Notes under the pieces: generated by a model | What the model was told of the DNA's origin: nothing | What the model saw: only the letters and a program-made list of their open reading frames with translations | Databases searched by the model: none | Assembly: GCA_022566355.1 (NCBI GenBank) | Contig: JADFJB010000030.1 | Span: 1-38,487 of the forward strand | DNA from: a candidate division KSB1 bacterium | Lineage (GTDB): Bacteria > Zhuqueibacterota > JdFR-76 > DREG01 | Direction: 5' to 3' | Length of the DNA: 38,487 bases | Made by a program: the position numbers and the translations under genes | Part shown: positions 28,228 through 36,139 of the stretch, piece by piece | Position numbering within the stretch: the first letter of the stretch is position 1 | Layout of the letters: the number at the start of each line of letters is the position of its first letter

Positions 28228-31203
28228 TCAAAGTATCTTCAATGAAATCATAAATTCCTTTGAAACGCTTTCATCCCTCTCAAAAGCAAAAGCATATCCA
28301 AGTGAGAACGTTGATCTAAAATGTGAAAACAAGACTAGTCTAAAATCTAACTGCCCACCAAGGTTAATAAGCGTTCTGCTACCCTCTTTGCGATCAAAAT
28401 TTGTCCTAATACCCATCGAAAAAACTGAAATTCGTGTCCAATTAAAGTAGAGAGCTGGAAAACCAAAACGACGAAATCTAATTGGAGGCAAATTCCATTC
28501 AAGTATCACTTTGCCATAATTTTTAGCGCCAATGGCATTGAGTTCCACACCTGGAAAGCTATAATATTCTCTATAACGTTTTATGGATAAATAATCAGCC
28601 CAGTTGTTCCCAAAGCCACCAAAAAAGAAATTCGCAAAAGGATCATCTCTGTCTCCAAAAGAATAGCCAACAGAGGTTCTCACCCAGATTGAAGTATAAT
28701 TAATCGGAAGCGGGATGCCATAATCGAAGTTCGTGTATATACGTGGGAAGTTCTTTTTATTAACAAAATTATTGTGGGTTATAATCTGCCATTTAAGACC
28801 CTTATCATAATCGACGGCCCCAAGAGATGACTGTTGATATTGATAATTCAACTTTAAATTGATAGACAACAACTTATCAAATGTTGCTACTACATTCTGA
28901 AAATCTGGTAACGTTTCTAAATTCCCATAACCACTTATACGAAGACTCAGATCCATAGCTTTGGGTTGATCGTATAGTAATGTTTTTTTATATTGCAGCC
29001 CTACAGAATAGCCTCTGCGACTTGTTTTAGTTGGACCAAACAAATCATAGAAATCGGCACCATTATAGGTTGCCATTAATTTCAACTGCAAGTGTTGTAA
29101 ATTAATCCCTACGTGTATCCTTTCTTCTTCAGGCAGATCGGTATCAGGGGAATACGAAGTAGTAATATCAAAGCCGGATAATCCGAGTCGATCAGAGAAA
29201 TCAAGGCGAATCCCAACAGCGGCAAAATCTTTGAACCCCTCAACAATTGGGTAGGCAGAAGTAAGTTCTATATTTCTTATTGTACTATAATTACCAGACG
29301 AAGTAGTAAGTGAATCGATGTTAATTAGTGCAGGCGATTTAAGCGTCCAACTTTTAACAATGGGATGATTTTTGGCTATTTCGTTTCCCAAGAATCTAAT
29401 GGCGCTAACATGCTCCGGCGGCTGAATTGGCACTGCGACCGGGACAAATCCTTTTCCGGTATATCGAAATGCGATCAGTCCAACACTTGAGATAGGGACG
29501 GGCCTAAATAAACCGGTTTCGCAATTGCTCAATATTTCCATAGCGTCGGTTTCAAAGTCGTAACGATAAATATTAGAGACACCGCTGTAATAAGAGGAGC
29601 CGTAGAGGTGTTTGCCATCTTGCGAAAAAACAAAGCCGGCGGGTGAACTGTTTTCAAAATCAAAAATAACCTCATAAGGGGGTTCGTCGTTGGCGGCATC
29701 CCCATTCAGTAGTTTTTCTACATGCATTTTAATGAGTTTTTGTCTGCCACTAACTTCAACCAGGGCTGCTGTAATAGTTGAACCATCCGGCGAGATATCT
29801 ATATCAAAAATATCCCTTCCATAAGGAAAGGTGTAGATTTGATTCCACTTCTTATATGGATAAGGAATGCGTACCAGTGTAGATATTCCATTAAAGTGCC
29901 GTACACCCCAAATTGATTTGTCTGCTTCATTAAATGCCAGGTCTCCCGTTCTCGCATTTTTTATGAGTCTCTTCGATTTGCGTGTTTTAATGTCCAAAGC
30001 ATTCAAATCTCGCCAGCGATTATTATCGGTTGTATAGAATAAGGTACCGCTGGATCTATCGTAGGCCAATGAGGCTACATCATATATAGCAGATCCCTTT
30101 ATATTACATAACTTTTCAATCGCACCAGATTCGATATCGATGGAAGCGATATGAGCAATTTGTCCTGGATAGTTTATTGCTGCGTAGATTTTCCTTTCTG
30201 CTGAATCGTAATATGCACGAGATACCGAACCCAGGGCTCTGCGCGATATTGGAAGAAAAGGAGTCGTGGGATGCAATCGAATTGAATCAAGATTTGCCTG
30301 TTGCCATTGATGTTCCCACGCGATCCATCGAGACCATTCTTCATCCAGTGAAACTCCATAGACATGCTTAAATTGCGCAGCAAAATATCTTTTACTACCA
30401 GGTTCACGGGAAACCCATTTTAATAGTTTTTCCGGTCCATATTGATTCGAAAGATAACTCATGAAACGGGTTCCATAAAGATAAGAGTTTGCACCTACCT
30501 GAAAATCAATCGTCGTTCCCTCCGATTCCAAGCCGACGACGTCATAAATGTAACTGCGGTCGCGAACCATGGTTCTGAACACCATTTCATCATATGCGCT
30601 AAGCGCACGACCCAATCCGCCGGCCATCCAGGTCTCCAGGAAAACCGCAATCCCTTCATGATACCAACGTGGAGAATACCAGCGCGGAGTAGTCAAATAA
30701 CTATAAAGAATGGACATAGGGTTCTCTGCGGTAGGAGCAACCTTTCCTAAGAAAAGTGAACGAAAAAAATTGTCCGCCCCGGCAGCCTTGTCGCCGACAA
30801 CAATATGAACTAACTCATGATTCATCATCCAATTCATTCTTTCATTGGAGGGCATGGTCCCAAATGCATAGCTGAAGGGTGCAATTCCAACATGAATGAG
30901 ATTGTTGGGAAGAGGTTTTGCTCCGGCATTTCCATAATCACCAAAATCTTGCAGCAGGACAGTAACTTTCTCGGAAGGTGTGTAATTAAAGAGATTGCTG
31001 TGGAAGTTTAAAGCATTTTCAAAACAACGGGCTAAGTGAGGCACTATGTATTCGTGTGCTTTTGTGTAGTAGATTAGCCTTAAGTTTTTTGTTTGTAGTG
31101 AATTTAATTGAGCATAAAGTACAGACGAAGATAAAAAGAGCATTATCTGTAAAATTGCGAATAATTTGTGACTGGATAAAGTTCTTCTTGTCTCGTAATT
31201 CAT
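28228..31203 (-). CDS. Exported zinc-peptidase-like / beta-propeller / beta-barrel fusion protein
   Basis: A 991-residue protein with a signal peptide (about residues 1-31, ending SVLYAQ). Residues about 35-300 look like a peptidase MA-type zinc metallopeptidase: HELVH (129-133) gives the HExxH motif and the Glu of WYHEGIAVFLE, about 50 residues later, fits the third ligand. Residues about 310-640 contain repeats with aromatic/Asp strands (DIDISPDGSTITAALVE, FVFSQDGKHLYGSSYY) like a TolB/WD40-type propeller. The remainder, with alternating aromatic strands and an end in FMISLKIL, reads as an outer-membrane beta-barrel. Thus it probably sits in the outer membrane with the peptidase in the periplasm or outside. 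Substrate unknown. Domain borders are estimates. Confidence 0.78.
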   Translation of the reverse strand: MNYETRRTLSSHKLFAILQIMLFLSSSVLYAQLNSLQTKNLRLIYYTKAHEYIVPHLARCFENALNFHSNLFNYTPSEKVTVLLQDFGDYGNAGAKPLPNNLIHVGIAPFSYAFGTMPSNERMNWMMNHELVHIVVGDKAAGADNFFRSLFLGKVAPTAENPMSILYSYLTTPRWYSPRWYHEGIAVFLETWMAGGLGRALSAYDEMVFRTMVRDRSYIYDVVGLESEGTTIDFQVGANSYLYGTRFMSYLSNQYGPEKLLKWVSREPGSKRYFAAQFKHVYGVSLDEEWSRWIAWEHQWQQANLDSIRLHPTTPFLPISRRALGSVSRAYYDSAERKIYAAINYPGQIAHIASIDIESGAIEKLCNIKGSAIYDVASLAYDRSSGTLFYTTDNNRWRDLNALDIKTRKSKRLIKNARTGDLAFNEADKSIWGVRHFNGISTLVRIPYPYKKWNQIYTFPYGRDIFDIDISPDGSTITAALVEVSGRQKLIKMHVEKLLNGDAANDEPPYEVIFDFENSSPAGFVFSQDGKHLYGSSYYSGVSNIYRYDFETDAMEILSNCETGLFRPVPISSVGLIAFRYTGKGFVPVAVPIQPPEHVSAIRFLGNEIAKNHPIVKSWTLKSPALINIDSLTTSSGNYSTIRNIELTSAYPIVEGFKDFAAVGIRLDFSDRLGLSGFDITTSYSPDTDLPEEERIHVGINLQHLQLKLMATYNGADFYDLFGPTKTSRRGYSVGLQYKKTLLYDQPKAMDLSLRISGYGNLETLPDFQNVVATFDKLLSINLKLNYQYQQSSLGAVDYDKGLKWQIITHNNFVNKKNFPRIYTNFDYGIPLPINYTSIWVRTSVGYSFGDRDDPFANFFFGGFGNNWADYLSIKRYREYYSFPGVELNAIGAKNYGKVILEWNLPPIRFRRFGFPALYFNWTRISVFSMGIRTNFDRKEGSRTLINLGGQLDFRLVLFSHFRSTFSLGYAFAFERDESVSKEFMISLKIL

Positions 31204-31315: not shown

Positions 31316-31351
31316 AAGGAGATACCATAGTTCTGACTATGGCATCTCCTT
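31316..31351 (-). terminator. Strong hairpin terminator ending the CHAT/repeat-protein operon
   Basis: A 16-bp stem with one mismatch (31316-31331 with 31336-31351, AAGGAGATACCATAGT against ACTATGGCATCTCCTT) closes a 4-base loop TCTG, 75 bases after the stop of the repeat protein. On the minus strand it is followed by TTATTTG, so it fits a rho-independent terminator for that operon; its symmetry could also stop plus-strand transcripts. Confidence 0.8.
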
Positions 31352-31426: not shown

Positions 31427-32407
31427 CTACTTTGCTGTCAGCTCTCTCAACCCTTCTTCTGCCATCAGTGTTTGAAACTCATCGTTCTTCAACAAATTGC
31501 TCCAGGCCACCGCGTAACGGCTATCGGCCATCAGTTTCGCATAGTCTTGGTTGGCTAGCACATTACTCCATGCCACTGCATAGCGGGAATCGGCCATCAG
31601 TTCACGATATTTATCATTGGCCAGCAAATTGCTCCATGCCAATGCATACCGGCTATCCGCCATCAACTCACGAAGGTTATCATCGGCCAGCATGTTGCTC
31701 CAAGCCACCGCATAACGACTATCAGCCATTAACTTACGAAAATTGGTATCATTTAGCAGCTGGCTAAAATCCTGGTTCTCCAGCAAGTTACTCCATGCTA
31801 CAGCGTAGCGGCTATCGGCCGTCAGCTCTGTAAACTTGGATTCTGCAATCTGTTGACGCAGGTTCTCATCGGATCGCAAGTCGCTCCATGCCACCGCGTA
31901 ACGGCTATCTGCCATCAAATTACGAAACTTGTCGTCCGCCAGCAGATTACTCCACGCCATCGCGTAACGGCTATCGGCCATCATTTCACGAGATTTATCA
32001 TTGGCCAGCAAGTCGCTCCATGCCACCGCGTACCGGCTATCTGCCATCAACTCACGAGTTTTATCATCGGCCAGGATGTTGCTCCAAGCCACCGCATAAC
32101 GACTGTCAGCCATTAACTTACGGAAATCGGAATTCTTTAGCAACTCCTGAACCTTGTCACTTTGCAGCAAGTTCTGAAGCTCTGGATTTTTCAGTAGCAC
32201 ATCCTGATAGTTCATCTGTTCAGCCTGATATTTTTTTGCTTTTTCAACTCCACGAACGTCTCCGCGACTGGTTCCCGAAAAATACTCATCAGATGGTGTG
32301 GGGCCCTTATACGAAAAATACCCAATAAAAATGACAGCCACAACCGCAACTCCAATTAGGAGTTTCCCCTTTCCACTACTAAATAAGTTTTGTTGTTTCT
32401 TTTCCAT
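31427..32407 (-). CDS. Membrane-anchored protein of nine 22-residue ADSRYAVAWS repeats (unknown function)
   Basis: I do not recognise this 326-residue protein. Residues 1-14 are short and basic, 15-33 form one membrane helix (KLLIGVAVVAVIFIGYFSY), and 34-90 are a polar linker. Then nine copies of a unit around LMADSRYAVAWSNLL follow, with the Arg of each at 103, 125, 147, 169, 200, 231, 253, 275 and 297. The topology predicts the repeats outside the cytoplasm. Each unit resembles two short amphipathic helices separated by acidic turns (LADDK, LANDK). A very strong ribosome site (AGGGAGGT, four bases before ATG) and only 39 bases after the CHAT-protein stop indicate one operon in which this protein may be made in excess. 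It could be a partner, scaffold or substrate of the CHAT protein; this is inference. Confidence 0.8.
   Translation of the reverse strand: MEKKQQNLFSSGKGKLLIGVAVVAVIFIGYFSYKGPTPSDEYFSGTSRGDVRGVEKAKKYQAEQMNYQDVLLKNPELQNLLQSDKVQELLKNSDFRKLMADSRYAVAWSNILADDKTRELMADSRYAVAWSDLLANDKSREMMADSRYAMAWSNLLADDKFRNLMADSRYAVAWSDLRSDENLRQQIAESKFTELTADSRYAVAWSNLLENQDFSQLLNDTNFRKLMADSRYAVAWSNMLADDNLRELMADSRYALAWSNLLANDKYRELMADSRYAVAWSNVLANQDYAKLMADSRYAVAWSNLLKNDEFQTLMAEEGLRELTAK
31478..32125. repeat. 66-bp tandem repeats inside the repeat-protein gene
   Basis: The DNA encoding the nine repeats has a 66-bp period with strongly conserved bases (on the plus strand a core near GCGTAACGGCTATCGGCCAT recurs). Two spacings are 93 bp instead of 66. 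A larger repeat of 384 bp relates the first four units with their lead-in to the last four. Coding units are in phase throughout. Confidence 0.85.
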
Positions 32408-32446: not shown

Positions 32447-35400
32447 TTAACGAAAAAGAGACTTCCTCTTAATGATCAAAGTCGTAGCTATTACCAATAA
32501 GGTCACAATACCGATTAACCAGGTATTAAGGGTAAGGGCAGGACGTGTAGTTAGATCCAGCGGCTGCCAATCCCCGATTAAAATAAATGGCGCCCAATAA
32601 TAAGGGCTGCCTTTAGAAGCTCTGAGGTAATCGACTTTCGCCCTCCGCAAGGCATGCTTCTTGTTAAAACCCGATTTCATGTACTTATAAAAGTCCCTCA
32701 TTATGATTGCGGTTGCCTTATCGTCCACATTCCACAAACTCACCACCAGACTCGGTACACCGGCAAATAGAAAAGCTCGGGAAATGCCAATAAGGCCTTC
32801 GCCTTTTCGAGGTTTGCCTAATGCCGTATTACAGGCGCTTAGAACCACCAAATCGGCGTTCAAATTCATATTAAATACTTCATAAGTTTGTAGATAGCCG
32901 TCCTCTTCCGACTTGTCATTCTGAGTTAACACGATTTTTGAATAGAGAGGCTGGTTATCATTAGGCACGAAGTGGGTCGCGAGATGTAGGATGCGATAAT
33001 CCGTGGCTTTGAGCTTGAAATTTTCTTCTGTGGCTCGATTGCCAGTAAAGATATTATTGCTTAAGCCACGTAACACTCTACCAATGGCTTTGACCTCTGT
33101 TTCTGAGTCTGGTAATGAGAACAGACTTTCCCTTTTAACCCTGCCACCAGTAATGGACTCTTTCGAGGCCAAAAGTTCCCCTTGCTCTGGTTCAACCGGT
33201 TGTGGGCCAAAATCAGGATTGCCCATAGCCAGAATTCCTTTGTTGGGTTTTCTCAGTGTCTGCAAACCCGGTTCCAATAGACTTGCAGAAGAGACATAGG
33301 AAACATCAAATTTTTCCAACAAGAATTTGGCGTTCTCGTAGTCGTAAGGGCTTTCAACGCCGGTAGTATCGAACACCAACATTTCAAAAGGCAAATAGAA
33401 TAGGATGTCATCTGGCACGATGATCAGTTCTTTAGTATCTTGCAGCCATTTCTCGACCGGTTTGATAAGGACTTCATACAGAGCATGGGCAGAGAAGATA
33501 GAAAAATCGGCCGGTTGTGGGGTAAAGGTTTGTTCGCGGGCTTGTTCACCGGAGTTTTGAAATCCAAAAATGGGGCTCAGATCAGCTAACATTGTCTGGA
33601 GTCCTTCTCGATCTACAGCCACTTGGGAGTAAACTAAGGTATCGATGGTAATCACAAAAACAGACATTTTTTCTGGCCCCAAAATATATTCAACGACAGC
33701 TTGGCCATCATCCAAAATTCGGTGCTGGAGGTCATCAAGCCCCAATATTTCAGGAGATGTAAGCTGATAGTACGTGCGGTGCTTATTTTTAAAATCTTCC
33801 ATGATGGCGACTTTTTTTAGTTCCAAATCCGTGATTTTTTGATCTAACGAAAAAATTTTGTCTTTGTTTCTTGCAGTTTTTGAAAGTTCTTTAGAAAGTT
33901 CTGTATGTGCGGATTCATGTTGGGATGTGATTTGCTGCAACTGCGCTTTCAGTGTGTCTGAAAGCAACTCACTGAAAAGGTTTCGGCCTTGCGATAGGAT
34001 GCCCAGCATCGTTTTAGCCTTATATTTTTCGGCATAAATAAATGCGTCTTTATATTTTCCACTATGGGCTAAAAGTTGAACGATAGATGGATAGGCTTCA
34101 TATTTGTCCTCTAAATAATTGTTTCGTAGGGACTCTATGTCCAGGCTGTTTCTGACAGAATCATATATGGCAATAGCATTTACATAATGAGTGATGGCTC
34201 TTTGCAAGTCACCTTGTTTTTCATAGCATGAACCGAGTCCTGCCTGGGTTTCCCAAATGATTTGCACATCTTTGGTTTCAATGCCAATTTCAAGTGCTTC
34301 ATACAGATAATTGACCGCCGCTGAATCATTTCCTAAATCTTGATTCAGTGTACCAAGATTTCTTAGAATATAACCCTCCAGATACTTGTCTCCAATTTCT
34401 TTGGCGATTCTTAACGCATTATTTTGATATGCTATAGCTTTATCGTAATCACTTCTTTTTTGATATACCTCAGCCATGTTGGAAAGAACAAGACTTTCTT
34501 CATACTTTAATTTGTTTTTCTTTGCACTTTCCAGGGCCTCTCGATAATATTTTAGAGCTTGCTGGGGCTTTCCCCCCTGATCTTTGTAAACATTGCCAAT
34601 ATTATTTAACATTTGAACTTCACTAAACTTATTGCCGGTTTTTTTTGCTAATTGTAATGCTTCTATAAAATATTTCAGGGCTTTTGGGAAATTTGCGGAC
34701 ATAGCATAAACAGCTGCAATGTTTTGTAAACATGTCGCCTCTCTACTTTTGGATCCGATCTCTTGCGCGTGCTTTAAAGCCTCATTGAGATGATACAAAG
34801 CTTTAAAATAATCCCCTTGAACTAAATAAGCATTGCCAATCATCATGGTTGCATACGAAATAGCTTCAATGTCGTCAATTCTATCTGCTACTTTAAGCAA
34901 CTCTTCGCTAGTTGCGAGAACTTTGTCATATCTAGCCGTGCGAAAAAGACTGTAAATCATTGATTGGTATGCCAGAGTGAGCTCCGGATCAAGTTCGATT
35001 GACTTCGTAAGTATTCGTAATGCTTCATCCCATTCATACTTTCTTATATGGATATTGGCCAAACCGTAATAAGCACAGGCATTTTTCGGATCTGCTTGAA
35101 TGAGTTCACCAAAGTATTGAATCGCCGAATTTAAATCCTCTTTTGTTCTGTAAACCTCTGGCAGTCCGCCAGGATACTTGTATGCGTCGGCAAATTTTGC
35201 ATCAAGTTCGATAGATTTTTTAAATTTTTCTATTGCATGTTCGTAGTCTTGTCTTTTGAAGTCAATTTTGGCCAATGCATATAACGCATAAGGATTTTTG
35301 GGATTCTCTGTGAGCAAATTTTCAAAGTAGTTCTGGCCCGCTTCGAGATTATTTGTGAAGAAATAGACCTCTGCAATCTTTTTGTAAGCTTTATGGAAAT

Positions 35401-35602
35401 CAGGATGCTCGGAGATTAGCTGTTGAAATTCAATAATAGCCTGATCATATTCATCTTCACTCATTAGTTTGAGAATATTCACATAGCGTTCATGCAACTG
35501 CTGTGGAACTTGAGGCAGGAGGTGGGAACAAAAAAAAGCAATCAGGAAGATGCAACTATTGACCGCCACAAGTTTATGTTTTGGAAATAGCATAATGCTC
35601 AT
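32447..35602 (-). CDS. Exported TPR-CHAT cysteine-protease-like protein with C-terminal membrane anchor
   Basis: A 1051-residue protein. Residues 1-31 are a signal peptide (core VNSCIFLIAFFCSHLL). About ten to twelve TPR units fill residues 35-520 (for example NPKNPYALYALAKIDFKRQ, YFKALYHLNEALKHA). A helical linker with KYKAKTMLGILSQGR leads to a CHAT domain (about 690-1010), a caspase/separase-like fold. The His/Cys dyad is intact: His877 in ILHLATHF and Cys924 in VVLSACNTALGK, followed by GEGLIGISRAFLFAGVPSLV and SLWNVDDKAT. A hydrophobic helix near 1027-1046 and the end KRKSLFR anchor it with the protease on the periplasmic side. ATG at 35602 has GGAG seven bases ahead. Targets of such proteins are mostly unknown; the adjacent repeat protein is the obvious candidate. 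Confidence 0.9.
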   Translation of the reverse strand: MSIMLFPKHKLVAVNSCIFLIAFFCSHLLPQVPQQLHERYVNILKLMSEDEYDQAIIEFQQLISEHPDFHKAYKKIAEVYFFTNNLEAGQNYFENLLTENPKNPYALYALAKIDFKRQDYEHAIEKFKKSIELDAKFADAYKYPGGLPEVYRTKEDLNSAIQYFGELIQADPKNACAYYGLANIHIRKYEWDEALRILTKSIELDPELTLAYQSMIYSLFRTARYDKVLATSEELLKVADRIDDIEAISYATMMIGNAYLVQGDYFKALYHLNEALKHAQEIGSKSREATCLQNIAAVYAMSANFPKALKYFIEALQLAKKTGNKFSEVQMLNNIGNVYKDQGGKPQQALKYYREALESAKKNKLKYEESLVLSNMAEVYQKRSDYDKAIAYQNNALRIAKEIGDKYLEGYILRNLGTLNQDLGNDSAAVNYLYEALEIGIETKDVQIIWETQAGLGSCYEKQGDLQRAITHYVNAIAIYDSVRNSLDIESLRNNYLEDKYEAYPSIVQLLAHSGKYKDAFIYAEKYKAKTMLGILSQGRNLFSELLSDTLKAQLQQITSQHESAHTELSKELSKTARNKDKIFSLDQKITDLELKKVAIMEDFKNKHRTYYQLTSPEILGLDDLQHRILDDGQAVVEYILGPEKMSVFVITIDTLVYSQVAVDREGLQTMLADLSPIFGFQNSGEQAREQTFTPQPADFSIFSAHALYEVLIKPVEKWLQDTKELIIVPDDILFYLPFEMLVFDTTGVESPYDYENAKFLLEKFDVSYVSSASLLEPGLQTLRKPNKGILAMGNPDFGPQPVEPEQGELLASKESITGGRVKRESLFSLPDSETEVKAIGRVLRGLSNNIFTGNRATEENFKLKATDYRILHLATHFVPNDNQPLYSKIVLTQNDKSEEDGYLQTYEVFNMNLNADLVVLSACNTALGKPRKGEGLIGISRAFLFAGVPSLVVSLWNVDDKATAIIMRDFYKYMKSGFNKKHALRRAKVDYLRASKGSPYYWAPFILIGDWQPLDLTTRPALTLNTWLIGIVTLLVIATTLIIKRKSLFR

Positions 35603-35670: not shown

Positions 35671-36139
35671 ACTCCCTAGTGTTAGTTTAATTAACAAAAA
35701 AAAGACATCCTCTTAATGATCAAAGTCGTTGCTAATACTAAAAAGGTCACAATACCGATTAACCAGGTATTAAGGGCAGGACGGGCAGTTAGATCCAGCG
35801 GCTGCCAATCCCTGATTTAAAATAATAATATGGGCTGCCCTTAGGAGCCTTGAGGTAATCGACTTTCGCCCTCCGCAAGGCATGTTTCTTGTTAAAACCC
35901 GCTTTCATATACTTATAAAAGTCCCTCATTATGATTGCGGTTGCCTTATCGTCCACATTCCACAAACTCACCACCAGAGTCGGTACACCGGCAAATAGAA
36001 AAGCTCGGGAAATGCCAATAAGGCCTGATCATATCATCTTCACTTTGAGAATATTCACATAGCAGCTTCATGCAACTGCTGTCGGAACTTGAGGCAGGAG
36101 GTGGGAACAAAGGGAAACAATCAGGAAGATGCAACTACT
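35671..36139 (-). pseudogene. Relic second copy of the TPR-CHAT gene with internal deletion
   Basis: Bases 35671-36026 repeat, at about nine bases in ten, the 3' end of the CHAT gene and its trailer (32413-32798), including SLWNVDDKAT and the C-terminal helix, but with small indels that shift the frame. At 36023-36026 the copy jumps from the CHAT part to the gene's 5' part (equivalent to 35439 onwards, up to about 35560), at a GCCT present at both ancestral positions. So about 2.6 kb was lost between 4-bp microhomologies. The copy begins at the Shine-Dalgarno region of the downstream gene, so the duplicated unit once reached at least that far. No intact product can be made. Confidence 0.88.

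Follow-up and report, generated by a model that had tools for sequence, protein, structure and literature searches.

The open reading frame at positions 31,427-32,407 (minus strand) of the window, by which we mean the whole 38,487-nucleotide stretch of candidate division KSB1 DNA analyzed here, encodes a 326-residue protein that belongs to a previously unrecognised family of membrane-anchored repeat proteins, whose genes precede that of a large predicted outer-membrane partner. We consider it about an even chance (probability near 0.5) that the protein is an anchored periplasmic arm that pairs with this partner and stands under, and reports to, a dedicated sigma-factor circuit. In the gene cluster, which is conserved in at least five phyla, the repeat arm changes freely, the outer-membrane partner is conserved and the sigma promoter is near-private. 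The cluster seems to be an undescribed, self-contained stress-signalling unit; a search of the open literature returned nothing on this cassette, and neither Pfam nor NCBIfam holds a model for the repeat-arm family. The family, the swapping of repeats, the gene order, the fusion to an anti-sigma domain, the promoter motif and the selection on repeat units can all be read from the sequences themselves.

Conserved anchor and variable tail

The window protein has one N-terminal membrane helix, a family signature and helical repeats that continue to its final residue. The helix (KLLIGVAVVAVIFIGYF) was predicted by hydropathy at residues 14-32 (32,312-32,368, minus strand), a position conserved across the family, and the signature region, defined from family alignments, spans residues 45-70 (GTSRGDVRGVEKAKKYQAEQMNYQDV; 32,198-32,275, minus strand). 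Relatives share this build, namely the membrane helix, the signature GTIGGVKKAEKY...DVxLxD..iQ.LLQ.D and a lineage-specific repeat tail, with the consensus after the helix reading G[TS]I.GVxKAeKY, then DVxLxd and then iQ.lLQ.d. Across phyla only residues 45-70 and the LL..QSD segment that follows them can be aligned. The family profile matched the window protein with an E-value of 3.2e-34, the protein itself being part of the alignment. A contig scan with the whole repeat protein, in which the search patterns lay mostly inside the repeats, returned no relatives.

Family members were found in KSB1, Acidobacteriota, Gemmatimonadota, Latescibacterota and Bacteroidota, including 16 of the 82 genomes of the window's phylum and 11 of the 395 genomes of the phylum to which a Cyclobacteriaceae record (G083) belongs. 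The same genome carries a paralogue on contig C47 (G000:C47, loci L002/L030), which is 43% identical to the window protein at the N terminus and has a tail made purely of 9-residue repeats (ANASFREAL). Tail periods among relatives are 9/18, 11, 12 and 22 (9+13) residues, and tail lengths range about 4-fold, from 148 to 628 residues; several arrays run to the end of a contig, and lengths read from draft genomes may therefore be incorrect. Two members (L079 and L082), both with the partner gene downstream, show no evident tandem repeat in the tail, which indicates that repetition is not essential to the family. Periods of 9, 11, 12, 9+13 and none form a natural series with which to ask which of length, helicity and sequence matters to a periplasmic arm. 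In a Latescibacterota member (L055, 3537-4445) the repeats VVLPDADGGKR have a non-helical look, with helical modules of the usual kind on either side of them. The C47 cassette also contains a 146-residue gene (L030, 7378-7818) with the same kind of anchor (MRRRILFIIAGVV...GATGTFS) and no repeats, which lies between the anti-sigma and repeat genes, directly behind the second sigma promoter.

Matches of the repeats to Pfam and NCBIfam models (Ig_VWDE, GerD, DUF5419, thymidine kinase and others) appear to be artefacts of the repetitive sequence, and for the main ones no single stretch passes alone. The STI1-HOP_DP model (PF17830) was considered separately, since the tail could be a chaperone-like, STI1/DP-related array, with unfolded outer-membrane proteins or membrane helices as its periplasmic clients. 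The short helices of the window protein do begin with NP/DP-type caps (NPEF/DPxF), and the model was matched with E-values of 2.9e-6 by the window protein and 1.4e-3 by the paralogue. The scores (27.5 and 18.9 bits, respectively), however, fall below the curated cut-off of 29.1 bits, other repeats match unrelated families equally well, and the window tail differs in being a pure tandem array with lineage-specific units. A sequence-based search of solved structures with the repeat protein and the family profile as queries gave no convincing match either, and we judge the chaperone reading very unlikely.

Layout of the array and selection on its units

The nine ADSRYAVAW units occupy residues 100-315 (31,463-32,110, minus strand), with ADSRY motifs starting at residues 100, 122, 144, 166, 197, 228, 250, 272 and 294. 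The mirror-like spacing of 22, 22, 22, 31, 31, 22, 22 and 22 residues reported in the sequence-only reading was confirmed in the translation. Cutting at the hydrophobic pair ahead of each helix start delimits two module types, of 9 residues (LLANDKYRE type) and 13 residues (LMADSRYAVAWSN type), such that 22 equals 9+13 and 31 equals 9+9+13. The longer spacings correspond to an extra 9-residue module behind unit 4 (residues 188-196; 31,820-31,846, minus strand) and another behind unit 5 (residues 219-227; 31,727-31,753, minus strand), and the C-terminus closes with two 9-residue modules. A single-sequence AlphaFold model shows 7-residue helices followed by 11-residue ones, at a confidence (pLDDT 44) too low to establish a solenoid.

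That reading had attributed the 4+1+4 layout to the duplication of a 128-residue block. Both diagonals that it predicted, at 66 and 384 bp, are present and far above chance (DNA identity of 60% at offset 66 and 75% at offset 384; protein identity of 64% at offset 128), and TRF detected two 66-bp arrays in the gene. The best segment on the 384-bp diagonal, however, is only 150 bp long: residues 96-145 (copy A; 31,973-32,122, minus strand) match residues 224-273 (copy B; 31,589-31,738, minus strand) with 91% identity, which pairs the end of the lead-in and units 1-2 with units 6-7. Along the rest of units 2-4 identity drops to 65%, the level found between any two units (70 ± 6%). The figure of 384 bp is thus how far apart the copies lie, and not the length of a block. 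Units 1-4 and 6-9 had been expected to pair in order, and the unit matrix shows reciprocal best pairs for 1-6 (92%) and 2-7 (88%), but not for 3-8 (68%) or 4-9 (65%), which are no closer than random units; the nearest relative of unit 3 is unit 9 (77%) and that of unit 4 is unit 2 (79%). The proposed repetition of an ELTA ending is seen in the protein, with LTADSR behind unit 4 and LTAK at the C-terminal end, whereas the DNA there is only 61% identical over 36 nt. What survives of the two supposed halves, each a linker, four units and ELTA, is a segmental copy that covers the lead-in and two units. The unit matrix and the segment scan rule out the block duplication as the source of the layout; since the 91% identity is confined to 150 bp, a single copy of 150-170 bp explains the spacing only in part, and the remainder must come from separate unit gains.

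The likeness of the units points to constraint on the protein. Pairwise comparison of the nine window units gave a dS of about 1.6, a dN of 0.22 and a dN/dS of 0.14 per 22-mer, while the 13-residue module gave 0.04 and the C47 array 0.05, all values that rest on short units and near-saturated dS. Codons agree at identical residues with a frequency of 0.47, only slightly above the 0.38 predicted from codon usage. Synonymous differences amount to 1/13 in the pair 1-6 and 4/13.5 in the pair 2-7. With these two pairs as exceptions, low dN/dS at saturated synonymous sites indicates that the units are alike because of selection on the protein and not because they were copied recently, which runs counter to how tandem arrays are usually interpreted. 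The suggestion that a long regular array is itself selected stands insofar as the units are alike in amino acids, but the number, length and type of repeats vary among relatives.

Between lineages the arrays turn over fast. In two Acidobacteriota whose partner genes share 97.1% identity, changes affect 78 of 421 residues (199 of 1263 bases) of the array and 2 of 90 positions of the anchor; this divergence implies rapid turnover between lineages with a uniform unit inside each. Among the differences between the arrays of loci L051 and L052, which accrued over a short divergence time, are 15 Ser to Ala substitutions (TCC to GCC in 11 cases), and the changes between these arrays cluster mostly at one phase of the 9-mer.

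Turnover of this kind, independent of sequence, would suit a passive spacer comparable to TolA domain II, in which extended length alone is selected and the repeats arise by slippage and homogenisation. The repeat tract of E. coli tolA offers a precedent, as its copy number varies and it works over 2-39 copies, with stress-dependent effects (PMC3477136). Neither slippage nor a pure length constraint, however, predicts the strong purifying selection seen among units within a genome (dN/dS of 0.04-0.15 at saturated synonymous distance), and the protein lacks both domain III and the SHLS motif of TolA; a passive spacer is accordingly an unlikely explanation. Lineage-specific tandem-repeat proteins in general likewise show tandem duplication and unit turnover, and the present family differs from them in its conserved anchor, its invariant partner gene and its low dN/dS at saturated dS.

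Partner gene and sigma cassette

The partner gene (28,228-31,203, minus strand) encodes a predicted outer-membrane protein of 991 residues with a signal peptide, a HELVH zinc-peptidase-like domain, a TolB-like propeller and a C-terminal beta-barrel. A partner of about 1000 residues is the next gene downstream in all 31 loci with a readable flank (13 from KSB1, 8 from other phyla and 10 of 10 from a later scan), and for the strongest partner homologues the repeat gene lies upstream in every case where that flank is present. A more divergent partner branch, represented by G040, lacks the repeat gene, and G058 has too little upstream sequence to judge its presence. The window partner is 67% identical to that of C47, and the partner tree places it beside the latter and two other KSB1 sequences with moderate support (90/95). 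Fold comparison, which covered the propeller, gave TolB as the best match (Z up to 22.8, rmsd of 2.6 over 242 residues; Foldseek E of about 1e-8), and the C-terminal barrel has about 16 strands in a model with a pLDDT of 73. In one locus (L033, about 10058, G035) a single in-frame TAG interrupts the partner gene while the rest of the cassette is intact; this may represent a pseudogene, a sequencing error or recoding.

The peptidase-like domain of the partner carries a zinc peptidase MA signature, with HELVH at residue 129 and HEGIAVFLE at residue 182, although its Pfam score is below the cut-off; all 15 partner homologues have HExxH, with the EG..E segment conserved as well. This raises the alternative that the tail is a proteolytic substrate of the HExxH domain, of PrsW or of the window's CHAT protein, so that cutting it would signal or free peptides and identical units would be identical cleavage or peptide units. 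Three protease-type genes surround the repeat gene, selection keeps the units identical, and KR recurs in nearly every L055 unit. No cleavage-like motif is common to the lineages, however, the units differing fully among them, two members have no repeats, and the CHAT gene adjoins the repeat gene only in the window, all of which makes a substrate role rather improbable.

Most loci begin with genes for RsbW, an ECF sigma factor and an anti-sigma factor, a cluster seen in KSB1, Acidobacteriota, Gemmatimonadota, Latescibacterota and several genomes of the G083 phylum; some clusters include SpoIIE phosphatases, and PrsW lies behind the partner gene in most loci. Pfam names the ECF, RsbW-type ATPase, SpoIIE and PrsW proteins. 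The anti-sigma gene matched no Pfam family, and we identified it from three features: a position following the sigma gene, one membrane helix and likeness between loci. In five loci (L044, L083, L084, L085 and L086) the anti-sigma N-terminal domain, the membrane helix and the repeat tail form one open reading frame and a separate anti-sigma gene is missing. One of these, L044, comes from the window's own phylum; as the two fused groups belong to different phyla, the sequences suggest that the fusion arose at least twice.

The pattern CCAAC-17-TGTA was found upstream of 11 of 23 sigma genes, against 3-5 in shuffled sequences. The full motif, ACCAACTTTTT-N-ATTGTA, lies 3-13 bases ahead of most sigma start codons and recurs ahead of the repeat operon in about 11 loci, mostly 38-87 bases upstream, two fused genes with a distance of 38 bases being among them. 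The exact pattern occurs twice in the window's 4.6-Mb genome, both times in the C47 cassette, and other genomes have 0-5 matches against 0-3 for a reversed control. With so few matches outside the cassette, the sigma factor looks nearly private to the cluster.

The copy in the window is a second one in its genome; it no longer has the sigma promoter and follows a TPR-CHAT gene, while the C47 copy adjoins an ECF gene. The best promoter-matrix score in the window was 8.6, compared with up to 12.9 in shuffles and at least 20 at known sites. The repeat gene is flanked by the partner gene and by the TPR-CHAT protease-like gene (32,447-35,602, minus strand; a signal-peptide-like N terminus and a C-terminal membrane helix), the latter 39 bp upstream. 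A terminator-like hairpin of 16 pairs (31,316-31,351, minus strand; a consensus match only) separates the repeat and partner genes. The CHAT protease was discarded as a conserved partner in a Craspase-like pair because the relatives read lack a CHAT gene at this place and other CHAT genes occur elsewhere in the genome. Just upstream of the intact TPR-CHAT gene, a degraded CHAT-domain fragment with an in-frame stop (35,825-36,031, minus strand) is the remnant of a tandem copy.

Proposed role of the arm

The reading that we prefer, an anchored arm paired with the outer-membrane partner, draws on gene order, fusion and fold similarity for the periplasmic location, spanning, binding and sensing that it supposes. 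The inner membrane would anchor the protein, whose 9- and 13-residue modules, with helices of 7 and 11 residues, would form a periplasmic arm that works as a pair with the peptidase-propeller-barrel protein of the adjacent gene. The arm probably reaches from the inner toward the outer membrane and holds or senses its partner there. In most relatives the pair would be the output of a dedicated ECF-sigma circuit comprising the anti-sigma factor, the RsbW-like ATPase and the intramembrane protease PrsW, and the arm probably signals to the sigma factor by way of the anti-sigma domain, with which some lineages have it fused. Between lineages its exact sequence would matter little, provided that the periodic helical build and the anchor are retained; the roughly 4-fold range of tail lengths argues against a strict ruler. 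Counting against the arm are the lack of a conserved C-terminal domain to bind the outer membrane, the missing sigma promoter and the hairpin ahead of the partner gene in the window copy, five Bacteroidota loci without sigma or anti-sigma genes nearby, and the two tails without a clear repeat.

TolA also has an N-terminal membrane helix followed by a long helical, repetitive region with variable copy number, its domain II being poorly conserved in sequence (PMC12204202), and the partner of the repeat protein carries a TolB-like propeller. The helical region of TolA spans the periplasm; the helices of the window protein are those of the low-confidence model described above. SHLS is absent from its membrane helix and from the entire family alignment, a C-terminal domain III (about 100 residues) is missing, as the repeat modules reach residue 325 of 326, and no C terminus common to the relatives was found. 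The partner propeller is moreover fused to a peptidase-like domain and a barrel, and the repeat gene stands in an ECF sigma/PrsW context. Because SHLS and domain III are missing, we do not take the repeat protein for a TolA, which may nevertheless, by analogy, be the nearest thing that it works like.

The neighbourhood of an ECF sigma factor, a single-pass anti-sigma factor and PrsW, together with the fusion of the anti-sigma domain to the repeat arm in five genomes, recalls the RsiW-type anti-sigma factor that PrsW cuts in Bacillus. The window protein differs in having no anti-sigma domain, with only 13 residues ahead of its membrane helix, and in not lying beside an ECF sigma gene, and the cassette adds an outer-membrane partner and a repeat tail. 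A possible, more specific form of the arm reading, which we think rather less likely than not, is a previously undescribed trans-envelope circuit in which the arm physically engages the partner. If this contact were lost or the arm cut, PrsW and the anti-sigma factor would pass on the signal, and the sigma factor so released would act chiefly on its own gene and on the arm-partner-PrsW operon, with an arm that is replaced wholesale between lineages and kept uniform inside each. The stand-alone anti-sigma protein of the C47 cassette (L030, 6490-7272) has a short motif behind its membrane helix that recalls the GTIGG of the repeat protein and reads YGTMI, SGAMI or TGTLA in relatives, so that an old kinship between the two membrane proteins is possible.
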